A model generated the notes under the pieces. The model saw only the letters and a program-made list of their open reading frames with translations. It made no database searches and was not told where the DNA came from. This document shows positions 1 through 9,703 of a DNA stretch of 9,703 nucleotides, in pieces (the stretch's first letter is position 1; every line of letters starts with the position of its first letter). This DNA comes from Pseudomonadota bacterium (GTDB lineage: Bacteria; Pseudomonadota; Gammaproteobacteria; Steroidobacterales; Steroidobacteraceae): the NCBI GenBank assembly GCA_003242275.1, contig QGUX01000124.1:1-9703 (forward strand), given 5' to 3'. Made by a program: the position numbers and the translations under genes.

Positions 1-226
1 CGGTGGGAGGGAGGAGGCGGGCGGGCGGGGGCGGGCGGCGCCCCGCCGGCCCGGTGATGGGCGTGACGGCCGGCAGGCCGGCTGCGCCGGGCGCCGGTGC
101 GGCCGCGCCAGCCGCCGTGGTGGCCGGGCCGGCGCCCGGTCCCGCGCCTGGACGGGGAGCGCCGCCCGGCGCCGCGCCCGGACCCGCGCCGCCGCCGCGC
201 GGACCGAAGCCGCCGCCGCCGAAGGT
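1..226 (-). repeat. Low-complexity Gly/Ala/Pro linker of paralog A
   Basis: About 75 codons after the GDIGRL motif encode almost only Gly, Ala and Pro (for example GPGAGPGAAPGG), turning Pro/Arg-rich near the edge (RRPPPARLLPPT). It matches in position, but not in sequence, the linkers of B and C. It is probably disordered and separates the beta-helix from the C-terminal module. The plus strand at 5-35 has six runs of three or more G separated mostly by single bases. Confidence 0.8.
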
Positions 227-2398
227 CAGGCGCCCGATGTCGCCCCGGCACACCGCGGCGTTCCAGTCGCGCTTGATCACGCAGGCTTCCTCGTCGGTGG
301 CGATGCTGTCGAACTCGCCATCGTGGATGAGGATGTACGCGTTGGGGATGCCGCCCACCGAGCCGTCCAGGTCGTGGATCACGGCGGTCTTCCAGGCCAC
401 GATGCTGCCGAGGTCATTGCCCCACTTGCGCTCGAACTTCGGGAAGTGCACCGGCCGCGCATTGACGAACTTCGCGCCCTCGATGGCGTTCTCGGTGCTC
501 ACGCCGGCGCTGGTGTACAGCAGGTAGGACAGCGCGCCCGCCTGCCGGTACGGGTTGTCGGCGAAGTTCACGAAGGTGGTGTTCACCACGTCGTGGCGGT
601 AGTCGTAGTACTCGTAGCCGCGGATGGGGAAGTCCGGGATCTGCGGCTTGGGCAGGCTGCGGCCCTGCGCCTTCTCCTCCGGCGTGCGCGGGTTGCCGAT
701 GTTCTCGGTCTCGCCCACGAACAGCGAGTCGATCACCAGCGAGGTGAAGGGATCCCGGCCGGCCGAGCCCGAGGCGTGGGTGTAGCCGATGGCGTTGTCC
801 GCCACGCGCAGGTTCCGGAACACATGCATCTCGCCACGGCCCCACACGCCGCCGTTCCTGTTCTTGTACGAGGTCAGGTCCTCGAAGTAGGACTCCAGCG
901 TGCGGCTGGAATTGTCCTGCGGGTTCTCCTTGGGCATGTGCGAGCTGCCGGTGACGCTGAAGCGTCCGTCCGGGCCGGCGTTGCGGTCGAACATGAAGCC
1001 GTCGTAGTTCGAGTGCGCCACGTTGCCCTTGAAGATGCCGAGCTTCGTGCGCCGCGGCCAGATGGTCTTGCTGACCTCGGTGCCGTCGAAGGCGCCGGTG
1101 GGATGCTCGGGCAGCGACAGCCAGAAGCCGGTGACATCCGAGCCGGCCGCCACGTTGTCGATGTAGTGGTTGTTCGGGTTGGTGATCCAGAACGAGGAGA
1201 CGGTGTTGTCCGAGGGGATCAGCACCTCCTTCGAGGTCTGGCCCGAGTTGCGGAACACATTGCGCTGGTCGAAGTCCGGCATCTCGCCCGCGGCCGCCAG
1301 GATGGTGGGCTGGCAGGGCTTGGTCGGGTGGCACTTGGTCTGGATGGCCAGGTTGCGCACGTACTGGTTGCCGGTCTCGATGCCGTCCTCCAGGAAGAAG
1401 CAGTGGCCCACGGTGTTGTAGGTCACGTTGTTCTCGATCCGGAGGTTGTTGGTGCCATGCACGGTCACGCAGCGGTTGTACGTGTCGTGGATCGAGGCGT
1501 TCCTGATGTACTGGCCATCGGCATCCCCGACGAGGTGCCAGTGCACGGGATAGCGGGCCAGCGTCAGGTGCTGGCCCATGCGCCGCAGCTCCACGCCCGA
1601 CACGTAAATGCGGCTGGTGGGCATGGCCATGATGTGGCCGCCGAAGTAGCTCTGCTCGGCGTCCTCGGAGGCCTGGATCAGGATGTTGCGGGTCAGGAGC
1701 CCCACCTCGCCGCGCTCGTCCACCTCGAAGGTGATCTTGCCGAAGTGCATGTACTCCAGCGGCTTGTCGAGCGTGATGGTGTTGCCGCTGATGGCGCGGA
1801 TGGTGCGCCGCTCGGCCTGGCGCGGATCGTAGTCGGTGGAGGCCAGCACGATCTCGTCGCCGGGGCGCCAGCCATAGGCATTGAGCACCTCGATGGTGGT
1901 CGCGCCCGCCTCGGCGGTCTTCGCCAGCCTGGTCCAGGTGTGGGTGCGGTCGCCGTGCAGGCGCAGGGTGCCGCCGGAGATCATGATGCCGCGGTCCCCC
2001 ATGCCGGACATGATGTCCTCGCCCTTCACGTTGTCGGTGAAGGTGATGGTGGCCTTCTTCGTGTGCGGGTGCGACGGCGTGCCGATCTCGAGTTCACCGT
2101 GCAACATGATCCATTCGGTGACGAGCTCGAGGTCCCTGTCGTTCGAGAACACCAGCTTGCCCTCGATGGTGAGGCCATTGAGCGGCGGCGGGCTCACGTC
2201 GAGCACCACGACCTTGTCCTTTGCAATGGTCACCTTGTCGCCGGCCTTCGGCACCTTGCGGTCCGGCCACGCGGCCGGATCGGACCAGTGGCTGGCATTG
2301 GCCGGCACGGCCTGCGCCTGCGCGACGCTGATGGCGCCGCCGAGCGCCAGCGCCGGCACCAGGGATGCAAGCAGGATGGAGCGATAGCGAATGCCCAT
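1..2398 (-). CDS. Secreted G8-domain / beta-helix protein, CEMIP/TMEM2-like (paralog A), 3' end beyond window
   Basis: I translated this frame directly: it is open from ATG at 2398 to the left edge (799 codons, no stop). The start is chosen because it gives a signal peptide (MGIRYRS, then a hydrophobic stretch ending AQAQA) and has a GGGGG Shine-Dalgarno-like run 8 nt upstream. A G8-type domain follows (HWSDPAAWP, GDKVTIA, ELEIGT, GMGDRGIMISGGTLRLHG), then the beta-helix core with HWHLVGD, CVTVHGTNNL, HCFFLEDGIE, SFWITNPNN, AHSNYDGFMFDRN and SLFVGETENIGNPRT, then DWNAAVCRGD. The same motifs in the same order occur in animal CEMIP/TMEM2 ectodomains, compared from memory. After GDIGRL the protein becomes a Gly/Ala/Pro linker that ends LLPPT at the edge. 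By comparison with B (QPPV) and C (LPPV), only the last domain of about 100 residues is missing. It lacks the block GQRAVSNGIADAD found in B and C. Likely exported; the activity is not proven, and a glycan-active role is inferred from the family. Confidence 0.93.
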   Translation of the reverse strand, partial: MGIRYRSILLASLVPALALGGAISVAQAQAVPANASHWSDPAAWPDRKVPKAGDKVTIAKDKVVVLDVSPPPLNGLTIEGKLVFSNDRDLELVTEWIMLHGELEIGTPSHPHTKKATITFTDNVKGEDIMSGMGDRGIMISGGTLRLHGDRTHTWTRLAKTAEAGATTIEVLNAYGWRPGDEIVLASTDYDPRQAERRTIRAISGNTITLDKPLEYMHFGKITFEVDERGEVGLLTRNILIQASEDAEQSYFGGHIMAMPTSRIYVSGVELRRMGQHLTLARYPVHWHLVGDADGQYIRNASIHDTYNRCVTVHGTNNLRIENNVTYNTVGHCFFLEDGIETGNQYVRNLAIQTKCHPTKPCQPTILAAAGEMPDFDQRNVFRNSGQTSKEVLIPSDNTVSSFWITNPNNHYIDNVAAGSDVTGFWLSLPEHPTGAFDGTEVSKTIWPRRTKLGIFKGNVAHSNYDGFMFDRNAGPDGRFSVTGSSHMPKENPQDNSSRTLESYFEDLTSYKNRNGGVWGRGEMHVFRNLRVADNAIGYTHASGSAGRDPFTSLVIDSLFVGETENIGNPRTPEEKAQGRSLPKPQIPDFPIRGYEYYDYRHDVVNTTFVNFADNPYRQAGALSYLLYTSAGVSTENAIEGAKFVNARPVHFPKFERKWGNDLGSIVAWKTAVIHDLDGSVGGIPNAYILIHDGEFDSIATDEEACVIKRDWNAAVCRGDIGRLTFGGGGFGPRGGGAGPGAAPGGAPRPGAGPGAGPATTAAGAAAPAPGAAGLPAVTPITGPAGRRPPPPARLLPPT

Positions 2399-2436
2399 GG
2401 AATCGACCCCCGAGTCGGAATTCGTTGTTGGGCCGG

Positions 2437-2444
2437 AGGATAGC
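2437..2444 (-). promoter_or_regulatory. Possible -10 element upstream of paralog A
   Basis: The minus strand reads GCTATCCT, with TATCCT at 2442-2437, about 39 nt before the ATG. The matching place upstream of paralog B reads GCTATGCT. No convincing -35 box is seen, so this rests on the similarity of the two leaders. Confidence 0.3.
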
Positions 2445-2567
2445 GCGATCGCCCGCGCATGGCCTTCCCTGCGCGGCAGGGCGAGTGCCCGGGAAGCGGG
2501 GATTCATCGGGGAGGCCCTTCGGTCGGGCCGGGCAGGACTTTCGCGAACCGAAGGCCGGGACGCGGA

Positions 2568-2597
2568 ACTCCCGCCGGGGACCTGCCCGGCGGGAGT
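2568..2597 (-). terminator. Hairpin after paralog B (terminator-like, no T-tract)
   Basis: A perfect 12-bp inverted repeat (2568-2579 with 2586-2597) with a 6-nt loop lies 15 nt past the stop codon of B. The minus strand after it starts TTCCG and has no T-run, so it is not a classical intrinsic terminator. It may protect the 3' end or reduce read-through into paralog A, which starts 170 nt further on. A second, weaker inverted repeat (2517-2524 with 2548-2555) follows. Confidence 0.5.
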
Positions 2598-2612
2598 GCG
2601 GAACCGGGGTTC

Positions 2613-5384
2613 CTAGCGGCTGACCATCACGCTGCCGCCGCCGCCGCGGCCGCCGTCGGCGGTCGAGACGATCTTCAGCCACAGCGCTCCGTCGGCCTTG
2701 TAGTACGCGGTCGAGGTCGCCTTGCGCAGCGCATCCAGGCTGTCCACCGGCGTGCCCGCCGCGGCCGTGGTGAAGCCGGGCAGCTCGAAGACCACCCACG
2801 AGCCCGGGTCGAGCTCGGTCAGGGCGATGTTCACCGACGGCCGCTCGGTGGTCACCTTGATCTCGGTGCCGGCGCGCACCTTGGTCGCCGTCAGCTCATA
2901 GGTCTTGCCGTTGCGGCTCAGGTACACCGGCGGCTGCGCCGGCGCGCCGCCCGGGCCGCCCAGGCGGGGACCCGCAGCCCCCGGGGCGCCGCCAGGCGCG
3001 CCACCGGGAGCACCCGCGCCGGGCGCACCGCGCGGCGCCGCGCCAGGCGCACCGGCGCCAAAGCCCGGCGCGCCAGCGCCGCGGCCGGTCGCACCCGGTG
3101 CGCCCGCACCCGGACCGGCCGCGCCACGCGGCGGGCCGCCCGCGCCACCGCGCGGACCACCAAAGCCGAAGCCCTGGGCGCCCACCGACAGGCGGCCGAT
3201 GTCACCCTTGCAGATCATCGCGTTCCAGTCGCGCTTGACCTGGCAGGCCTTCGGTTCATCCGCGAGGGTGTCGTTGACGCCCTCGAGATTGATCAGCACA
3301 TAGGCGTCCTTGCCGGCGCCGAGCGAACCGTCCTTGTCGCGGATGACCGCGGTCTTGTAGGCCACGCTGCTGCCGTTGTCGTTGGCCCACTTGCGGTCCA
3401 TCGGCGGGAAGTACACCGGCTTGGCATCGACGAACTTCACCCGCTCCACCGAGTTGTTGGTGGTCACCGCGAAGCTGGTGTACAGCAGGTAGGACATGGC
3501 GCCGGTCTTGCGGGTGGCGTTGTCCTTGTAGTTCACGAAGGTGGTGTCCACCACATCGTGGCGCAGGTCGTAGTACTCGTAGCCGCGGATGGGGAAGTCC
3601 GGCAGCTCGGGCTTGGGCAGCGAGCGGCCGTACTTCTTCTCCTCCGGCGTGCGCGGGTTGCCGATGTTCTCGGTTTCGCCCACGAACAGCGAGTGCTCCA
3701 CGCGCGAGGTGAAGGGATTGCCGCCGCCGAAGCCGGCCGCGTGCGTGAAGCCGATGGCGTTGTCCGCCAGCTTCAGGTTCCTGAACACGTGCATCTCGCC
3801 GCGGCCCCAGATGGCGCCGTTGCGGTTCTTGTACGCGGTCAGGTCGGCGAATACCGTCTCCAGCGCGCGGCTGTTCGGGTCGGCCGGGTTCTCGCGCGCC
3901 CAGTGCGAGTCGCCGGTGACGCTGAAGGTGTTGTCCTGGTTGATGTTGCGGTCGAACATGAACGAGTCATAGTTCGAGTGGCCCACATTGCCGCGGAACT
4001 CGCGGAAGGGCGTGCGCCGCGGCCAGGTGTTCTTCGCGACCTCGGTGCCCTCGAACTGGCCGTTCGGGTGCTCGGGCAGCGAGACCCAGAAACCGTTCAC
4101 GTCCGAGCCGGCCGCCACGTTCCCGATGAAGGTGTTGTCCGGGTTGGTGATCCAGAAGCTGGCCACCGTGTTGTCCGAGGGCAGCAGCACGTCGGCATCC
4201 GCGATGCCGTTCGACACCGCCCGCTGGCCGCTGCCGCGCGCCTGCTGGGCGGTGCGGCCGAAGGCCTCGCCCGAGGCTGCCAGCACCGTCGGCACGCAGG
4301 TCTTGGTGGGATGGCACTTGGTCTGGATGGCCAGGTTGCGCACGAAGCGGTTGCCGTGCTCGATGCCGTCCTCCAGGAAGAAGCAGTGGCCCACGGTGTT
4401 GTAGGTCACGTTGTTCTCGACCTGCAGGTTGTTGGTGCCGTGCACGGTCACGCAGCGGTTGAAGGTGTCGTGGATGGCGGAGTTCTTCACGTACTGGCCA
4501 TCGGCGTCACCCACCAGGTGCCAGTGGATGGGGTAGCGCGCCAGCGTCAGGTGCTGGCCCATGCGCTGCAGCTCCACGCCCGAGATGTACATCCTCGACG
4601 ACGGCATCGCCATGATGTGGCCGCCGAAGTGCGACTCGGCCGCGTCATCGGAAGCCTGGATCCTGATGTTGCGCGTCAGGAGGCCCACCTCGCCGCGCTC
4701 GTCCACGCCGAAGGTGACCTTGCCGAAGTGCATGTACTCCAGCGGACGATCCAGCGTCAGCGAGTTGCCGTTGAGGGCGCGGATGGTGCGGCGCTCGGCC
4801 TGGCGCGGATCGAAGTCCGTCGACGCCAGCACGATCTCGTCGCCCACCCGCCAGCCGGAGGCATCGAGCACCTCGATGGTGGTGGCGCCGGCGTTGGCGG
4901 TCTTCGCCAGCTTGGTCCAGGTGTGGGTGCGGTCGCCGTGCAGGCGCAGCGTGCCGCCGGAGATCATGATGCCGCGATCGCCCATGCCGGCCATGATGTC
5001 CTCGCCCTTCACGTTGTCGGTAAAGGTGATGGTGGCGTTGCGGGTGTGGGGCCGCTCGGGCGTGCCGATCTCCAGCTCGCCGTGCAGCATGATCCACTCG
5101 GTGGTCAGCTCCAGGTCGGCGTCGTTGGAGAACACCAGCCTGCCGTCGATCGACAGTCCGTTCAGCGGCGGCGGGCTGACGTCGAGGATGACGGTCCTGT
5201 CGCGCGCGATGGTGACCTTGTCACCGGCGGCCGGCACCTTGCGGTTCGGCCACGTGGCCGGATCGGACCAGCGCGTGGCGGCGGATGAACCCGCATCCTG
5301 CGCCTGCGCCAGCGACGCCATGCCGCCGAGCAGGAGCGCGGGAACCAGAGAAGCAAGCAGGACCGGGCGGAATGCCTTGCCCAT
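2613..5384 (-). CDS. Secreted G8-domain / beta-helix protein, CEMIP/TMEM2-like (paralog B), complete
   Basis: The only complete member of the trio, 923 aa. ATG at 5384 is preferred over in-frame upstream ATGs because it gives a clean signal peptide (MGKAFRP, hydrophobic 8-25, AQAQ at 26-29) with GGGGG 6 nt upstream. Seen in order: G8-type domain about 38-150 (RWSDPATWP, GDKVTIA, GMGDRGIMISGGTLRLHG); a beta-rich bridge 151-220 (GDEIVLASTDFDPRQAERRT); parallel beta-helix about 230-690 with HWHLVGD (287-293), CVTVHG (311-316), HCFFLEDGIEHGN (333-345), SFWITNPDN (409-417) and SLFVGETENIGNPRT; DWNAMICKGDIGRL (719-732) with C714 and C725 a possible disulfide; Gly/Ala/Pro linker about 735-818; C-terminal module 819-923 (GSWVVFEL, STAYYKADGALWLKI). 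G8 proteins of animals include CEMIP and TMEM2, which take part in hyaluronan depolymerisation. The same module order suggests an exported glycan-active or glycan-binding protein; the substrate is unknown. There is no membrane anchor or sorting motif, so it is probably periplasmic or secreted. Confidence 0.97.
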   Translation of the reverse strand: MGKAFRPVLLASLVPALLLGGMASLAQAQDAGSSAATRWSDPATWPNRKVPAAGDKVTIARDRTVILDVSPPPLNGLSIDGRLVFSNDADLELTTEWIMLHGELEIGTPERPHTRNATITFTDNVKGEDIMAGMGDRGIMISGGTLRLHGDRTHTWTKLAKTANAGATTIEVLDASGWRVGDEIVLASTDFDPRQAERRTIRALNGNSLTLDRPLEYMHFGKVTFGVDERGEVGLLTRNIRIQASDDAAESHFGGHIMAMPSSRMYISGVELQRMGQHLTLARYPIHWHLVGDADGQYVKNSAIHDTFNRCVTVHGTNNLQVENNVTYNTVGHCFFLEDGIEHGNRFVRNLAIQTKCHPTKTCVPTVLAASGEAFGRTAQQARGSGQRAVSNGIADADVLLPSDNTVASFWITNPDNTFIGNVAAGSDVNGFWVSLPEHPNGQFEGTEVAKNTWPRRTPFREFRGNVGHSNYDSFMFDRNINQDNTFSVTGDSHWARENPADPNSRALETVFADLTAYKNRNGAIWGRGEMHVFRNLKLADNAIGFTHAAGFGGGNPFTSRVEHSLFVGETENIGNPRTPEEKKYGRSLPKPELPDFPIRGYEYYDLRHDVVDTTFVNYKDNATRKTGAMSYLLYTSFAVTTNNSVERVKFVDAKPVYFPPMDRKWANDNGSSVAYKTAVIRDKDGSLGAGKDAYVLINLEGVNDTLADEPKACQVKRDWNAMICKGDIGRLSVGAQGFGFGGPRGGAGGPPRGAAGPGAGAPGATGRGAGAPGFGAGAPGAAPRGAPGAGAPGGAPGGAPGAAGPRLGGPGGAPAQPPVYLSRNGKTYELTATKVRAGTEIKVTTERPSVNIALTELDPGSWVVFELPGFTTAAAGTPVDSLDALRKATSTAYYKADGALWLKIVSTADGGRGGGGSVMVSR
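2931..3182 (-). repeat. Low-complexity Gly/Ala/Pro linker of paralog B
   Basis: About 84 codons (residues 735-818) encode irregular repeats of GAPG, GAGAPG and GGAPGG. There is no strict Gly-X-Y period, so it is not collagen-like. The DNA is built of short GC-rich near-repeats that could change length by slippage. The equivalent linker is about 75 residues in A and only about 33 in C. Confidence 0.8.
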
Positions 5385-5415
5385 GGAAAACCCCCAATTC
5401 AGATTTGGCGCGCGA

Positions 5416-5423
5416 AGCATAGC
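5416..5423 (-). promoter_or_regulatory. Possible -10 element upstream of paralog B
   Basis: The minus strand reads GCTATGCT, with TATGCT at 5421-5416, 32 nt before the ATG. It shares its surroundings (GAATT, then GGGGGT, then TTCCATGGGC) with the leader of paralog A. No good -35 box is visible; an inverted repeat (5429-5449) lies where one would be. Confidence 0.3.
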
Positions 5424-5428
5424 CTGAA

Positions 5429-5449
5429 CGGACGAGGGGGGCTCGTCCG
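5429..5449. promoter_or_regulatory. Inverted repeat between GFA remnant and paralog B
   Basis: Perfect 8-bp arms (CGGACGAG / CTCGTCCG) around a five-base G/C loop. It lies 41 nt past the stop of the GFA remnant and 44 nt before the ATG of paralog B. It could be an operator for B or the old terminator of the GFA gene; no T-tract follows on the minus strand. Confidence 0.35.
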
Positions 5450-5490
5450 GAAGGGAAGGGGGGGCCGGAGTGCGAAAACTTCGCGCTGCT

Positions 5491-5880
5491 TCAGCCCGCC
5501 GGCTGCGGCCAGGTGAAATCCGGGCGCAGTCCCGGGTACACCGGCCGGCCGTCGTCGGGCTTCGGGTAGCCCTTCGATTCATCCCAGAAGGCGTGGTAGG
5601 TGGCCTCCGGGAATCCCTCGCCGTAGCCCATGAGGTCCGGCACGCCGACGCGGATGCGCTTCAACCGGTCATCCAGCATCAGCACCGCGTTGCACTCGGT
5701 GCACAGGCAGATCTCCAGCGGACCGTCCGGGTTGTCCTTGTTGAACGGCACGCGAGCGATCTTCTCCGGATGATCGACCTTCACGTCGCCGTACCGGAAG
5801 AAGGCCACGTGCGTGGTCCGGCGGCCGGTGACCGCCTTGCACACATTGCAATGGCAGACGTGGTTGTCAGCAGCGCTCCG
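5491..5880 (-). pseudogene. GFA-type (CENP-V/GFA) zinc enzyme, 5'-truncated remnant
   Basis: The open frame runs from just after an in-frame TGA (5883-5881) to TGA at 5491. It begins RSAADNHVCHCNVCKAVTG and continues through ICLCTECNAVL to a C-terminal part with YHAFWDESKGYP. CxCxxC followed by a later CxxC is the zinc-binding pattern of the GFA family (named for glutathione-dependent formaldehyde-activating enzyme, a name loosely applied to many members). The N-terminal CxCG motif and the first 40-50 residues of the family are absent in all three frames upstream. The only in-frame start is a GTG at 5844, inside the CHCNVC motif; it would lose two of the three cysteines and has no Shine-Dalgarno. 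I therefore call it a broken gene. The remaining part is intact in frame, so the loss may be fairly recent. A cut by assembly error is the alternative. Confidence 0.7.
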
Positions 5881-6044
5881 TCATCCGTGCCGTGGAGCGA
5901 AACCGGCTGGGCCCGGAATCCAAGGCGCACGCGGCCTGCATCGCCGAAGGTGTCGTCCGGCGTTCCCGCGGACGCCCCGTCGAGCCGGATGCGGGTGACC
6001 ACCGTGGAATCCTCGCCGGCACGTGCCACGTACAGCCACGCATC
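5870..6044 (-). pseudogene. Delta-60-like beta-propeller fragment
   Basis: In a frame different from both neighbours, the minus strand reads DAWLYVARAGEDSTVVTRIRLDG, a short spacer, PDDTFGDAGRVRLGF and then TDDGALLTT. The run of an Arg/Leu-Asp-Gly turn, a D-T-F-G motif and a following beta segment resembles one delta-60 (DUF5122) repeat, found in secreted or sensor beta-propellers. There is no plausible start (a GTG at 6029 is internal and lacks a Shine-Dalgarno) and the frame runs out of the pattern where the GFA piece begins. About 55 residues remain, far less than any complete propeller. It may be the sensor end of the same gene as the winged-helix fragment upstream, joined by an internal deletion, or an unrelated piece. 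Confidence 0.45.
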
Positions 6045-6187
6045 AGCGCCAGCAGCATGTCGAAGGACAGCTTCGGCAGCTCCACCGGCACGCCGCCCCG
6101 CAGCACGCGCTGCTGTCCCACGTCCAGCTCGATGTCACCCGCGCGCCAGATTCCCGTGCGCTCGCGGTCGCCTTCTTCCCTGGCCAT
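6041..6187 (-). pseudogene. N-terminal fragment of an OmpR/CadC-type winged-helix regulator
   Basis: From ATG at 6187 the frame reads MAREEGDRERTG, then IWRAGDIELDVGQQRVLRGG, VPVELPKLSFDMLLALM. This is the typical opening of a Trans_reg_C winged-helix domain (beta strands, then the first helix after the L-x-x-x-F-D-x-L-L-A-L motif). After about 49 residues the similarity stops, before the recognition helix, and the frame goes on without sense (GCTWHVPARI). Delta-60-like sequence takes over in another frame at about 6044. No Shine-Dalgarno precedes the ATG, but CATAAT lies 8 nt upstream. It cannot make a working DNA-binding domain as it stands. It points away from gene D, so the parent may once have been a divergently transcribed regulator; that is inference. 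Confidence 0.65.
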
Positions 6188-6251
6188 GGGCCGGATTATG
6201 GTCCAGCGCCAACGTGATTCGACCGCCTTTGGCTGGATTTTGGCGAAGCTG

Positions 6252-6268
6252 TGGCCGCACTTCGGCCA
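6252..6268. promoter_or_regulatory. Short inverted repeat upstream of gene D
   Basis: TGGCCG-cactt-CGGCCA, perfect 6-bp arms with a 5-nt loop, in the 166-nt gap between the divergent regulator fragment and gene D, about 86 nt before the ATG. A possible operator; such short palindromes are common in GC-rich DNA. Confidence 0.2.
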
Positions 6269-6340
6269 ACCCTCATGCGTCGCCGTGCGGAAAGGGGAAT
6301 GGTGCCGGGACCTCGTACCGAAGGACCGCCAACCAACCCC

Positions 6341-6346
6341 GGGAGA
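6341..6346 (+). promoter_or_regulatory. Ribosome binding site of gene D
   Basis: GGGAGA lies 7 nt before the ATG at 6354. It decides the start: the same frame is open far upstream, but only this ATG is followed by a signal peptide. Confidence 0.7.
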
Positions 6347-6353
6347 CGACGCC

Positions 6354-7685
6354 ATGTCCAGGGCCAGACCATGCCGGACCACCATCATCCTCGCGCTGCT
6401 CGCCATGCCGCCGGCCACCCTGCCTGCCCGGGCAGGGAACGAGCGCGTGATCAAGGTTTCCACCGTCGAGCAGCTCTACCGCGCCGTGAACGATCCGGCC
6501 AACGCCGGCGCGACGCTCGAGCTCAAGCCCGGCACGTACGTGCTCACCGCGGACGGGCCCGACGGACTGCCGCGTCCCAACGGCGGCCGGCTGGAGCTGC
6601 AGAAGGACATGTCCATCCGCGGCCGCGCCGGCGACCGCACTGCCGTCACCATCGATGCCTGGAACCTGCCGGCGACGTCGTTCCCGCAGAATGTCAACGG
6701 CCTGAACCTCGGCCCCAATGCCGCGGTGAGGCTGGGCAGGGGACGCAACACCCTGTCCTGGCTCACCGTGCGCGACGCGCGCTTCGCGCAGGCCAACATC
6801 GATTCCGGGTTGCAACCGCTGGACCCGGGCGCGGCCCATGTGCGGCTGGAGCACGTGGCCTCGAGCGGCTCCACGCGAGGCGCCAACCTGCTGAACTTCG
6901 GGCCGCTGGCCTCGGGGCAGGTGCTGGTGGCCGAGATCCTCGACTGCTACTTCTTCGACAACACCTTCAACCTCTCCGAGGGCATCCGCATCGGCAACTT
7001 CCAGGGCGCCACGAACGCCAGGGTGTATGCGCGCATGGTCGGCAATTCCTCCTGGGGGCAGTTCCAGGGGCGGCTGATCGTCAACAACCGCGCGATCTCC
7101 TCGGAGGTGCATGTGCTGTCGGTGGGCAACGCGTTCTTCGACAACGGCGCCGGTACCATCATCGTGGGCGGCCTGAGCTCGAACGACACGCGCGCCGACG
7201 GCAATACCATCCACTTCGTCTCGCGCAACGACTTCTTCGGCCGCAACAACGGCGACACCGACTTCGACCGCGGCGGGCTGGTGGTGCTGGGCACCGAGGA
7301 CATCTCGGATGCCGGCGGTGGCAGCTTCAACACGGTGAACGTCACCGTGTCGGGGGCGAAGATGCGTGACAACCAGCTCGCCGACCTCGCCGTCATCGGC
7401 GCGCGCGCGCTGTCGGCGGCGACGATCTCCAACAGCCTCGGCAACCACGTGACGGTGCACCTGCCGGATGGCCACAACCCGCAGGTGCGCAACTGGGTGG
7501 AGCTGATCGCCGACAGCGTGCCGGTGGCGCCGGGCACGGGCAACAAGGTCACGGTGATCCGGGGCGGGCACGACCACGGCGCCCACGGCCAGGGCGGGAA
7601 GGGCCAGAACGGGAAGGGTCAGAACGGGAAGGGCCAACCGGGACATGGCGCCGGCGGACATGGCGTCGGCGGACATGGCCACTGA
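6354..7685 (+). CDS. Secreted right-handed beta-helix protein with Gly/Lys/His repeat tail (gene D)
   Basis: 443 aa. Start ATG at 6354 with GGGAGA upstream and a signal peptide (MSRARPCRTT, hydrophobic 11-20, ARA at 25-27, mature end near GNERV). Residues 32-62 (VIKVSTVEQLYRAV, ELKPGTYVL) look like the N-terminal cap and first turn of pectate-lyase-like or chondroitinase-B-like beta-helices. From about 75 to 400 there are repeated short strands and Asn-rich turns (GNAFFDNGAG, GNTIHFVSRNDFFGRNNG, VSGAKMRDNQLADLAVIGA) typical of a parallel beta-helix. I see no recognisable catalytic motif, so enzyme or binding protein cannot be decided. The tail, residues 404-443, is low-complexity: HDHGAHG, three GKGQN-type units, then GHGAG/GHGVG units ending HGH. 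It stands alone in its orientation, converging with paralog C and pointing away from the gene remnants. A role on extracellular glycans fits its neighbours but is inferred. Confidence 0.93.
   Translation: MSRARPCRTTIILALLAMPPATLPARAGNERVIKVSTVEQLYRAVNDPANAGATLELKPGTYVLTADGPDGLPRPNGGRLELQKDMSIRGRAGDRTAVTIDAWNLPATSFPQNVNGLNLGPNAAVRLGRGRNTLSWLTVRDARFAQANIDSGLQPLDPGAAHVRLEHVASSGSTRGANLLNFGPLASGQVLVAEILDCYFFDNTFNLSEGIRIGNFQGATNARVYARMVGNSSWGQFQGRLIVNNRAISSEVHVLSVGNAFFDNGAGTIIVGGLSSNDTRADGNTIHFVSRNDFFGRNNGDTDFDRGGLVVLGTEDISDAGGGSFNTVNVTVSGAKMRDNQLADLAVIGARALSAATISNSLGNHVTVHLPDGHNPQVRNWVELIADSVPVAPGTGNKVTVIRGGHDHGAHGQGGKGQNGKGQNGKGQPGHGAGGHGVGGHGH
7596..7680 (+). repeat. Two sets of 15-bp tandem repeats encoding the tail of gene D
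   Basis: 7596-7640 holds three 15-bp units (GGGAAGGGCCAGAAC and variants), each coding GKGQN or GKGQP. 7641-7680 holds two and a half 15-bp units (GGACATGGCGCCGGC and variants), coding GHGAG/GHGVG. Unit differences are one to a few bases, so copy number may vary between strains without changing the frame. Confidence 0.85.
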
Positions 7686-7704
7686 CCGGAGCTGACAAGG
7701 AAAA

Positions 7705-7730
7705 GGCCCCCGGCCTCGCGGCCGGGGGCC
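7705..7730 (-). terminator. Intrinsic terminator of paralog C
   Basis: A perfect 11-bp stem (7705-7715 with 7720-7730) with a TCGC loop lies 24 nt past the stop of paralog C. On the minus strand it is followed by TTTTCCTT, giving a good rho-independent terminator. On the plus strand, 19 nt after the stop of gene D, the following bases are CCTGTCCG, so the hairpin is weaker for D but may still help. Confidence 0.8.
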
Positions 7731-7754
7731 CCTGTCCGATCGACGCGAGCGGCC

Positions 7755-9703
7755 CTAGCGGCTGACCTTCATGCGCACGCCGCCACCGGGCGCGCCGCGG
7801 CCGTCATCACCGGGCGAGACCAGCTTCACCCACAGCGCATCCTTGTCCTTGTAGTAAGCGGTGGTGGTGGCCTTGCGCAGCGCCTCGACGCTGTCCACTG
7901 CGGTGCCCGAGTCCGCCTTCGTGAATCCGGCGATCTGCAGGATCACCCACGAACCGGCATCCAGCTCGTTCACGTGCAGGTCCATCTCGGTGCGCTCGGT
8001 GTCCACGCGGATCTCGGTGCCGGCGCGCACATTGGTGCCCACCGGGATCGAGAACTGCCTGCCCTTGTGGCTCAGCTTCACCGGCGGCAGGTCCTCCGGG
8101 CGCGGGCCGCTGCTGGCGCCACGACCGACGGCGCCGAAGGCGAAGCCGCGGCCGTCGATGAAGCTCAGGCGGCCGATGTCGCCCCGGCACACCGCGGCAT
8201 TCCACTTGGCCTTGACCTGGCAGGCCTCGTTGTCGACGGCGACGCTGTTGTTCGGGCCGTCGTGGATCAGCACGTAGGAGTTGGGGCCCAGGCCCAGCGA
8301 GCCGTCGCGGTCCCTGAACGAGGCGGTCTTGTAGGCCCAGCTGCCGGCGCTGATGTCATTGCCCCACTTCAGCTCCATGCGCGGGAAGTGCACCGGCTTG
8401 GCATTGACGAACTTCACCTTCTCCACGGCGTTGTTCGAGCTCATGCCGAAGCTGGTGTACAGCAGGAAGGAGATGGCACCGGCCTCGCGGGTGGCGTTGT
8501 CGGCGTAGTTCACGAAGGTGGTGTTCACCACGTCGTGGCGGTAGTCGTAGAACTCGTAGCCGCGGATGGGGAAGTCCGGCAGCATGGGCTTGGGCAGGCT
8601 GCGGCCGTACTTCTTCTCCTCCGGCGTGCGCGGATTGCCCACGTTCTCGGTCTCGCCCACGAACAGCGAGTCGACCACCTGCGAGGTGTAGTCGTAGCGG
8701 CCGCCGGCGCCCGAGGCGTGCGTGTAGCCGATGGCGTTGTCGGCCAGCTTCACGTTCCTGAACACGTGCATCTCGCCGCGGCCCCAGATGCCGCCATTCC
8801 TGTTCTTGTACGAGGTGAGGTTCTCGAACACCGCCACCACCGGCTGGCTGTTCGGGTCGGCCGGGTTCGAGAGGCCGATGTGCGAGCTGCCGGTCACGCC
8901 GAAGGTGTTGTCCTGGTTGATGTTGCGGTCGAACATGAAGCCGTCGTAGTTCGAGTGGGCGACGTTGCCCTTGAACTCGCGGATCGGCGTGCGCCGCGGC
9001 CAGACGGTCCTGGCGATCTCGGTGCCCTCGAACTGGCCGTTCGGGTGCTCGGGGAGCGAGAGCCAGAAGCCGTTGGCGTCGGAACCCGCGGCCACGTTGT
9101 CGCGGTAGACGTTGTCGGGATTGGTGATCCAGAACGACGCCACCGTGTTGTCCGAGGGCAGCAGCACATCGGCATCCGCGATGCCGTTGGACACCGCCCG
9201 CTGGCCGGCCTGCGCCAGGCCCTGGCGCGGCTGGGCGTGCTCGCCCGAGGCGGCGAGGTTGGTCGGCACGCAGGGCTTGGAGGTGTGGCACTTGGTCTGG
9301 ATGGCCAGGTTGCGCACGTACTCGTTGCCGTGCTCGATGCCGTCCTCCAGGAAGAAGCAGTGACCCACGGTGTTGTAGGTCACGTTGTTCTCGATGCGCA
9401 GGAAGTTGGTGCCATGCACCGTCACGCAACGGTTGTAGGTGTCGTGGATGGCGGCATTCTTGATGTACTGCCCGGGCGCATCACCCACCAGGTGCCAGTG
9501 GACGGGGTAGCGGGCCAGCACCAGGTTCTGCCCCATGCGGGTGAGCTCGACGCCGGCGATGTACATCTTCGACGACGGCATGGCCATGATGTGGCCGCCG
9601 AAGAAAGACTCGGCCGCATCCTCGGAGGCCTGGATCTTGATGTTGCGCGTCAGCAGGCCCACCTCGCCGCGCTCGTCCACGTCGAAGGTGATCTTGCCGA
9701 AGT
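7755..9703 (-). CDS. Secreted G8-domain / beta-helix protein, CEMIP/TMEM2-like (paralog C), 5' end beyond window
   Basis: The frame is open from the right edge (first full codon at 9701, reading FGKITFDVDERGEVG) to TAG at 7755: 648 residues. Alignment with paralog B by eye puts the first visible residue near B residue 220, so the signal peptide, G8 domain and bridge are outside the window and the whole protein should be about 870 aa. Visible beta-helix motifs: HWHLVGD, CVTVHGTNFL, HCFFLEDGIEHGN, SFWITNPDN, AAGSDANGFW, AHSNYDGFMFDRN, SLFVGETENVGNPRT, KAKWNAAVCRGDIGRL. The linker is short, about 33 residues, and not strongly Gly/Pro-biased (GASSGPRPEDLPPV). The C-terminal module (GSWVILQI, TTAYYKDKDALWVKLVS) and the ending VSR-stop match paralog B. 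A GTG at 9680 is only an internal Val codon. An intrinsic terminator follows. Function as for B: exported and probably glycan-related, not proven. Confidence 0.95.
   Translation of the reverse strand, partial: FGKITFDVDERGEVGLLTRNIKIQASEDAAESFFGGHIMAMPSSKMYIAGVELTRMGQNLVLARYPVHWHLVGDAPGQYIKNAAIHDTYNRCVTVHGTNFLRIENNVTYNTVGHCFFLEDGIEHGNEYVRNLAIQTKCHTSKPCVPTNLAASGEHAQPRQGLAQAGQRAVSNGIADADVLLPSDNTVASFWITNPDNVYRDNVAAGSDANGFWLSLPEHPNGQFEGTEIARTVWPRRTPIREFKGNVAHSNYDGFMFDRNINQDNTFGVTGSSHIGLSNPADPNSQPVVAVFENLTSYKNRNGGIWGRGEMHVFRNVKLADNAIGYTHASGAGGRYDYTSQVVDSLFVGETENVGNPRTPEEKKYGRSLPKPMLPDFPIRGYEFYDYRHDVVNTTFVNYADNATREAGAISFLLYTSFGMSSNNAVEKVKFVNAKPVHFPRMELKWGNDISAGSWAYKTASFRDRDGSLGLGPNSYVLIHDGPNNSVAVDNEACQVKAKWNAAVCRGDIGRLSFIDGRGFAFGAVGRGASSGPRPEDLPPVKLSHKGRQFSIPVGTNVRAGTEIRVDTERTEMDLHVNELDAGSWVILQIAGFTKADSGTAVDSVEALRKATTTAYYKDKDALWVKLVSPGDDGRGAPGGGVRMKVSR

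Follow-up and report, generated by a model that had tools for sequence, protein, structure and literature searches.

The 9,703-nucleotide contig QGUX01000124.1 of a Steroidobacteraceae bacterium (Pseudomonadota; assembly GCA_003242275.1), which was analysed over its whole length and is called the window here, encodes three paralogous proteins, A, B and C, whose homology to the core of the animal proteins CEMIP and TMEM2 is strongly supported by sequence and predicted fold. The family is real, strongly homologous to CEMIP/TMEM2 and already catalogued as a domain family. New are the lack of a lectin domain, a nearly invariant set of His, Glu, Arg and Tyr residues shared with TMEM2 as a candidate active site, and the polysaccharide-related surroundings of distant relatives. 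On balance, A, B and C are probably secreted proteins with a right-handed beta-helix, which would use this site to cleave an acidic polysaccharide outside the cell, or to epimerise it at C5.

Homology to CEMIP and TMEM2

The original prediction had described three CEMIP/TMEM2-like paralogs with a common core order and a G8 domain visible in A and B. Pfam, the sequence match to TMEM2 and the predicted fold bear this out: G8 scored above the Pfam cut-off in A and B, and the CEMIP beta-helix family (CEMIP_beta-hel, PF24606) far above it in A, B and C. G8 was not seen in the visible part of C, the N-terminus of which is cut by the window edge. In their shared parts, the three proteins are 65-76% identical to each other. 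They gave zero matches in an NCBIfam scan, as did PADLOC for B and for the 443-residue protein described below. The features are as follows.

2398..2, minus strand: paralog A, 799 residues, open at the left window edge; signal-peptide-like N-terminus, G8, CEMIP beta-helix and start of a Gly/Pro/Ala-rich linker
1922..2269, minus strand: G8 domain of A, residues 44-159 (Pfam 7.8e-30)
1001..1648, minus strand: CEMIP_beta-hel of A, residues 251-466 (Pfam 2.5e-81)
1376..1636, minus strand: candidate active-site stretch of A (H255, R282, Y283, H286, H288, H314, E337, E341)
5384..2613, minus strand: paralog B, 923 residues, complete
4905..5255, minus strand: G8 domain of B, residues 44-160 (Pfam 2.2e-29)
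3963..4628, minus strand: CEMIP_beta-hel of B, residues 253-474 (Pfam 6.9e-79)
4359..4619, minus strand: candidate active-site stretch of B (H256, R283, Y284, H287, H289, H315, E338, E342)
2946..3173, minus strand: Gly/Pro/Ala-rich linker of B, residues 738-813, with low model confidence (predicted local distance difference test, pLDDT, < 50)
2616..2942, minus strand: C-terminal beta module of B, residues 815-923, placed on TMEM2 domain X by structure overlay, not by sequence
9701..7755, minus strand: paralog C, 648 residues visible, N-terminus beyond the right window edge
8943..9602, minus strand: CEMIP_beta-hel of C, residues 34-253 of the visible part (Pfam 5.8e-78)
9333..9593, minus strand: candidate active-site stretch of C, every residue intact
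7758..8087, minus strand: C-terminal module of C, as in B (55% identity to B over 94 residues)

Human TMEM2 (8c6i) was the one PDB sequence that matched B at E ≤ 1. The single-sequence search gave an E-value of 3.4e-83 and a profile of 64 bacterial sequences one of 6.1e-127, so that, at the level of sequence, the match is far beyond chance. The AlphaFold2 model of B (pLDDT 80.9; predicted TM-score 0.83) shows the overall fold of the CEMIP/TMEM2 family, and 755 of its residues could be aligned with TMEM2 (model 34..923, TMEM2 118..1156). These are more than the 704 residues of B 34-737, and the overlay extends to TMEM2 1156 in domain X. The original prediction had counted a C-terminal YY-x5-L-x2-K module as part of the animal core. 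This module is reached by the structure overlay of B only; sequence similarity to TMEM2 was not detected, as a profile of the module (A5) gave no match to TMEM2 up to E 10. The other motifs quoted there occur in all three translations, except that DW-x-x-A-x-C fits A alone (DWNAAVC; DWNAMIC in B, KWNAAVC in C); the form common to A, B, C and TMEM2 is W-N-A-x-x-C.

Over the G8/helix region, TMEM2 is 42-46% identical to the window family and 23-38% identical to the remaining bacterial G8 proteins in the comparison. A small unrooted tree with this one animal sequence places TMEM2 between the distant set and a group of the window family and the Vitreoscilla type (support 0.77), a position which does not show a sister relation to the window family. 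Secretion had been suggested for all three paralogs and is likely; a hydrophobic N-terminus with an AQA-like site is visible by eye in A and B, and the N-terminus of C lies outside the window.

Absence of the lectin-like domains

In both the sequence and the profile alignment, the TMEM2 chain is skipped from 166-169 to 341, where the bacterial proteins have about 6-9 residues. B 168-173 stands opposite chain positions 170-340, which correspond to TMEM2 residues 252-422 with an offset of 82; this offset sets the C of H-F-H-L-C on the unpaired Cys554 of TMEM2 named in the part of Niu et al. 2023 (PMC10206443) consulted. The bacterial proteins therefore lack lectin-like domain 1 with R265, D273 and D286, which are reportedly essential in TMEM2. 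Their mapping onto B, which had been proposed as a check, fails, and R265/D273/D286 were rejected as a shared catalytic site because they lie within the missing domain; the conserved set described below is a better candidate. Lectin-like domain 2 is missing as well: in the overlay, the end of B falls at TMEM2 1156, the TMEM2 ectodomain runs to 1383, and B has no spare residues. With both domains missing, the bacterial form is a bare core. It has the continuous G8 and CEMIP beta-helix, the His/Glu/Arg/Tyr set and W-N-A-x-x-C in common with TMEM2 (and, by extension, CEMIP), but carries a Gly/Pro-rich linker instead of the lectin-like domains and is often multicopy.

Conserved residues and candidate active site

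H256, H287, H289, H315 and E338 (B numbering) are nearly invariant in the close family and in distant bacterial relatives, and R283, Y284 and E342 are conserved alongside them. The equivalents in TMEM2 are H519, H550, H552, H585, E608, R546, Y547 and E612. According to the strand register, the five His and Glu residues lie on one strand of four consecutive rungs of the beta-helix. Judged from this conservation, the candidate active site most likely consists of H256/H287/H289/H315/E338 together with R283, Y284 and E342, and possibly H219/R238. The alignment of distant relatives comprised 16 sequences, one of them (Croceibacterium) from the close family; L115 and L162 had no phmmer match and were excluded, L114 and L163 are the same gene and were counted once, and the rung grouping of the L158 model omitted one strand (328-330) in a low-confidence insertion.

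Clustering of conserved His, Asp and Cys residues had been expected by the original prediction. The strand register agrees with this for His and for Glu; the Cys residues and the Asp of the E-D-G motif are outside the universal set. H305, H333, D339, H469 and the conserved Cys were rejected as catalytic residues, since they are invariant in the close family and lost in many or most distant relatives. H469 and Cys were judged from the 16-sequence alignment only, with H469 covered in few rows.

Exopolysaccharide genes and fused domains in distant relatives

G8, the start of the CEMIP helix and the conserved set are common to B and distant bacterial G8 beta-helix proteins, among them those of Leisingera, Salipiger, Ruegeria, Vitreoscilla and Planctomyces. 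These distant proteins differ from B in that identity over the G8/helix region is 29-41%, and in one modelled member the overlay (TMEM2 117..990) does not reach domain X. LamG, RTX repeats or PA14 are fused to some of them, and CBM_6/CBM_35 to three of the seven members scanned, which were picked for listed domains (3/240 listed rows).

All seven plasmid-borne relatives from Rhodobacterales (H4 to H10) lie amid exopolysaccharide (EPS) genes, H8 at the edge of its cluster. When the annotation tables of 10-15 kb on each side were read by eye, glycosyltransferases were found in 7/7, GH16 glycoside hydrolases in 6/7, a polysaccharide export or chain-length protein in 6/7 and sulfotransferases in 5/7 cases; H4, H6 and H7 have nearly identical gene order and are thus not independent. 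As a control, three stretches of 49 kb from two of these plasmids were read, and none of their 116 annotated features was a glycosyltransferase. The remaining three of the ten plasmid records (Croceibacterium, Vitreoscilla, Planctomyces) showed no EPS context within the stretch read, with two polysaccharide genes about 6-7 kb off in the Croceibacterium record. At the level of the superfamily, the EPS context and the fused domains point to secreted, polysaccharide-active proteins.

Proposed function

The right-handed beta-helix, as in uronate lyases and epimerases, is present in the model of B and in that of a distant relative. AlgE/AlgG and PL6 beta-helix enzymes carry out epimerisation or beta-elimination of uronates. 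By analogy, His and Tyr residues of the candidate site would take the roles of base and acid, and the uronate carboxylate would be neutralised by Arg or by a metal bound to His, in a beta-elimination or epimerisation. The animal proteins would keep the equivalent site, with the two lectin-like domains on top.

The likeness to AlgE4, AlgE6, AlgG and the PL6 alginate lyases, which act on uronate polymers, is at the fold level, with 9-15% identity in the overlays. Phage tailspike depolymerases and the Klebsiella K1 capsule lyase also cleave polysaccharide with a beta-helix, but no sequence match to them was found in single-sequence or profile searches and Foldseek TM-scores were about 0.1-0.2 of the query. 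It is unlikely that A, B and C are uronate C5-epimerases which modify a polysaccharide without cutting it: the fold match to the epimerases cannot separate these from lyases or hydrolases, and shortening of hyaluronan is reported for the animal homologues in the part of Narita et al. 2023 (PMC10474455) consulted. A, B and C may be depolymerases, as originally predicted; hyaluronan as their substrate is supported by nothing found in this analysis.

Several observations weigh against a catalytic role of this kind. The test for clustering gave a modest value (hypergeometric P 0.014), side-chain clustering was deduced from the strand register only, and the alternation of inward and outward residues is clean around H287/H289 but not around H256, H315 and E338. 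The evidence from EPS genes and CBM domains was obtained for distant relatives, of which several are closely interrelated, and applies to the superfamily, not to the window subfamily, among whose neighbours no recurrent carbohydrate-active enzyme or EPS family was found in the loci examined. Furthermore, passages of Niu et al. 2023 (PMC10206443) describe pure TMEM2 as having no detectable activity or hyaluronan binding and its active site as not assignable. If A, B and C were non-catalytic secreted matrix, adhesion or sugar-binding proteins, the conserved set would hold the helix together or bind a structural metal, and animal CEMIP/TMEM2 would likewise act through partners. The cadherin-like, Ig-like, RTX and LamG parts of distant relatives, which are also found in adhesins, would fit such a role. 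We regard it as doubtful, as near-invariance of the His/Glu/Arg/Tyr residues among proteins with so little overall identity to B is typical of active sites, and intrinsic TMEM2 activity is reported by another laboratory in passages of Narita et al. 2023 (PMC10474455).

The ligand set H-x-H/H/E is the same as that of the 3-His-1-Glu site of cupins. Tentatively, it might be a metal centre, and CEMIP, TMEM2 and thousands of bacterial relatives might then form an unrecognised class of metal-dependent, polysaccharide-cleaving beta-helix proteins, some of them coupled to cytochrome c; an empty site might account for the apparent inactivity of purified TMEM2.

The enzyme status of TMEM2/CEMIP is disputed in print (PMC10206443 versus PMC10474455). 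With a bacterial family which lacks the lectin domain with the reportedly essential residues but has the set shared with TMEM2, the residues worth mutating are few and the protein to be expressed is simpler. Whether such a protein is active or not, and whether it needs the site or not, the result would bear directly on this dispute and on the function of a large family.

Gene neighbourhoods of the window family

Genes in the relative loci were called with a GC-frame heuristic, and 15 overlapping loci were taken out before neighbours were counted. C-x-x-C-H proteins of any size were encoded by 20/383 genes at most two genes from a CEMIP-like gene and by 11/682 genes at a distance of over three genes (P 0.0018; 16/290 versus 15/673 before removal of overlaps). 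Below 260 residues, a limit chosen after the first counts, the numbers were 12/383 and 2/682 (P 1.7e-4). Eleven of these 12 small genes lie on the opposite strand and nine are upstream and divergent. One (L068, 102 residues) is unlike a cytochrome and the others form two orthologous groups, so that independent events may number only two and the P values overstate the enrichment. Small cytochrome c genes of this type adjoin CEMIP-like genes in L008, L011, L034, L035, L042, L056, L062, L145, L150 and L152, where they occupy the opposite strand and in most cases lie upstream.

A Pfam scan covered 146 of 187 immediate neighbours of at least 110 residues and 141 of 510 far genes (at least five genes away), excluding proteins of 1300 residues or more. 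Cytochrome c was the commonest family among immediate neighbours (9/146; at most 1/141 far genes), and pyrroloquinoline quinone (PQQ)-type dehydrogenases occurred in 3/146. These neighbours keep alive, with low probability, a redox or metal enzyme in which H-x-H/H/E holds a redox metal and electrons are exchanged with a small cytochrome c of the periplasm. It is unlikely, since most loci, including the window, have no cytochrome, the Rhodobacterales relatives lie within EPS clusters instead, and the enrichment carries the statistical limits given above. L010 (6541-9312) contains the sole CEMIP-like open reading frame of the set with C-x-x-C-H; its surroundings look out of frame and do not resemble a cytochrome fusion.

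A polysaccharide-utilisation locus around the window family was considered and rejected, as lyase, GH88, sulfatase and EPS families did not recur among the scanned neighbours. Besides cytochrome c and PQQ dehydrogenases, TonB receptors (4/146 near, 4/141 far) and beta-lactamase-fold proteins recur there. DUF1552, DUF1592-type and ankyrin genes recur as sets in five loci of the window family (L009, L019, L023, L025, L065). Small DUF6152 proteins (e.g. L164 7831-8634; L056 511-930) form a cluster in ten loci, at most two genes away in four, and were found in 4/141 far genes.

Distribution and previous descriptions

In a scan of one genome per species, 226 stretches matched, and relatives are encoded by 215 of them. 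The titles of the 80 stretches kept are mostly from Gamma- and Alphaproteobacteria (Steroidobacteraceae, Nevskiaceae, Erythrobacteraceae and others) and Acidobacteria. One metagenome-assembled genome (G011; L013, L015) titled 'Bordetella parapertussis' grouped by phylum with one from Bryobacterales (Acidobacteria), and the title is probably a mislabel. A protein search gave at least 5553 homologues at E ≤ 1e-3 from 7995 candidates scored.

Presence is patchy, with 9/196 genomes in one order, 17/249 in one family and 7/297 in one phylum; in five of the last seven, all members are remote, with a best E of 3.5e-49 or weaker. Several copies are usual, as 24 carrier genomes had 1-7 matches each (median 3.5; at least three in 15/24), and both prevalences and copy numbers lean upward because carriers were chosen for the family, samples were carrier-centred and split genes were counted repeatedly. 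In Leisingera NJS201 (L174, 9905-16596), the annotation breaks a G8 gene into pieces, twice consecutively with the same protein accession, and some CEMIP-like copies in L076/G015 are split across frames.

The original prediction had called the family little described. This holds for the open-access literature searched, where no title or abstract start among the matches listed dealt with bacterial CEMIP-type proteins, most subscription papers and bioRxiv preprints being outside this scope. The family is nevertheless already in Pfam, and among the 120 matches listed some are automatically named 'G8 domain-containing protein' or 'cell migration-inducing and hyaluronan-binding protein'. A 2006 paper reportedly named the G8 domain and may list bacterial members. 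Bacterial homologues are not mentioned where two reviews on microbial hyaluronidases (PMC11669647, PMC13113925) deal with CEMIP, TMEM2, KIAA1199, HYBID and the G8 domain, in the passages found for these names.

Other genes in the window

Between C and B, positions 6354-7685 (plus strand) encode a secreted-looking protein of 443 residues, which appears beta-helix-like by eye and has a Gly/His-rich tail; no Pfam family was found above the cut-off and no tblastn match (E ≤ 1e-4) among the relative loci searched. A small Cys-containing protein of 117 residues without a Pfam match (5494-5844, minus strand) lies between B and a regulator remnant. The latter (5870-6187, minus strand) resembles the beginning of an OmpR-type regulator with a winged helix, to which NCBIfam gave a weak match (E 0.0026) over only about 44 residues, and looks degraded.
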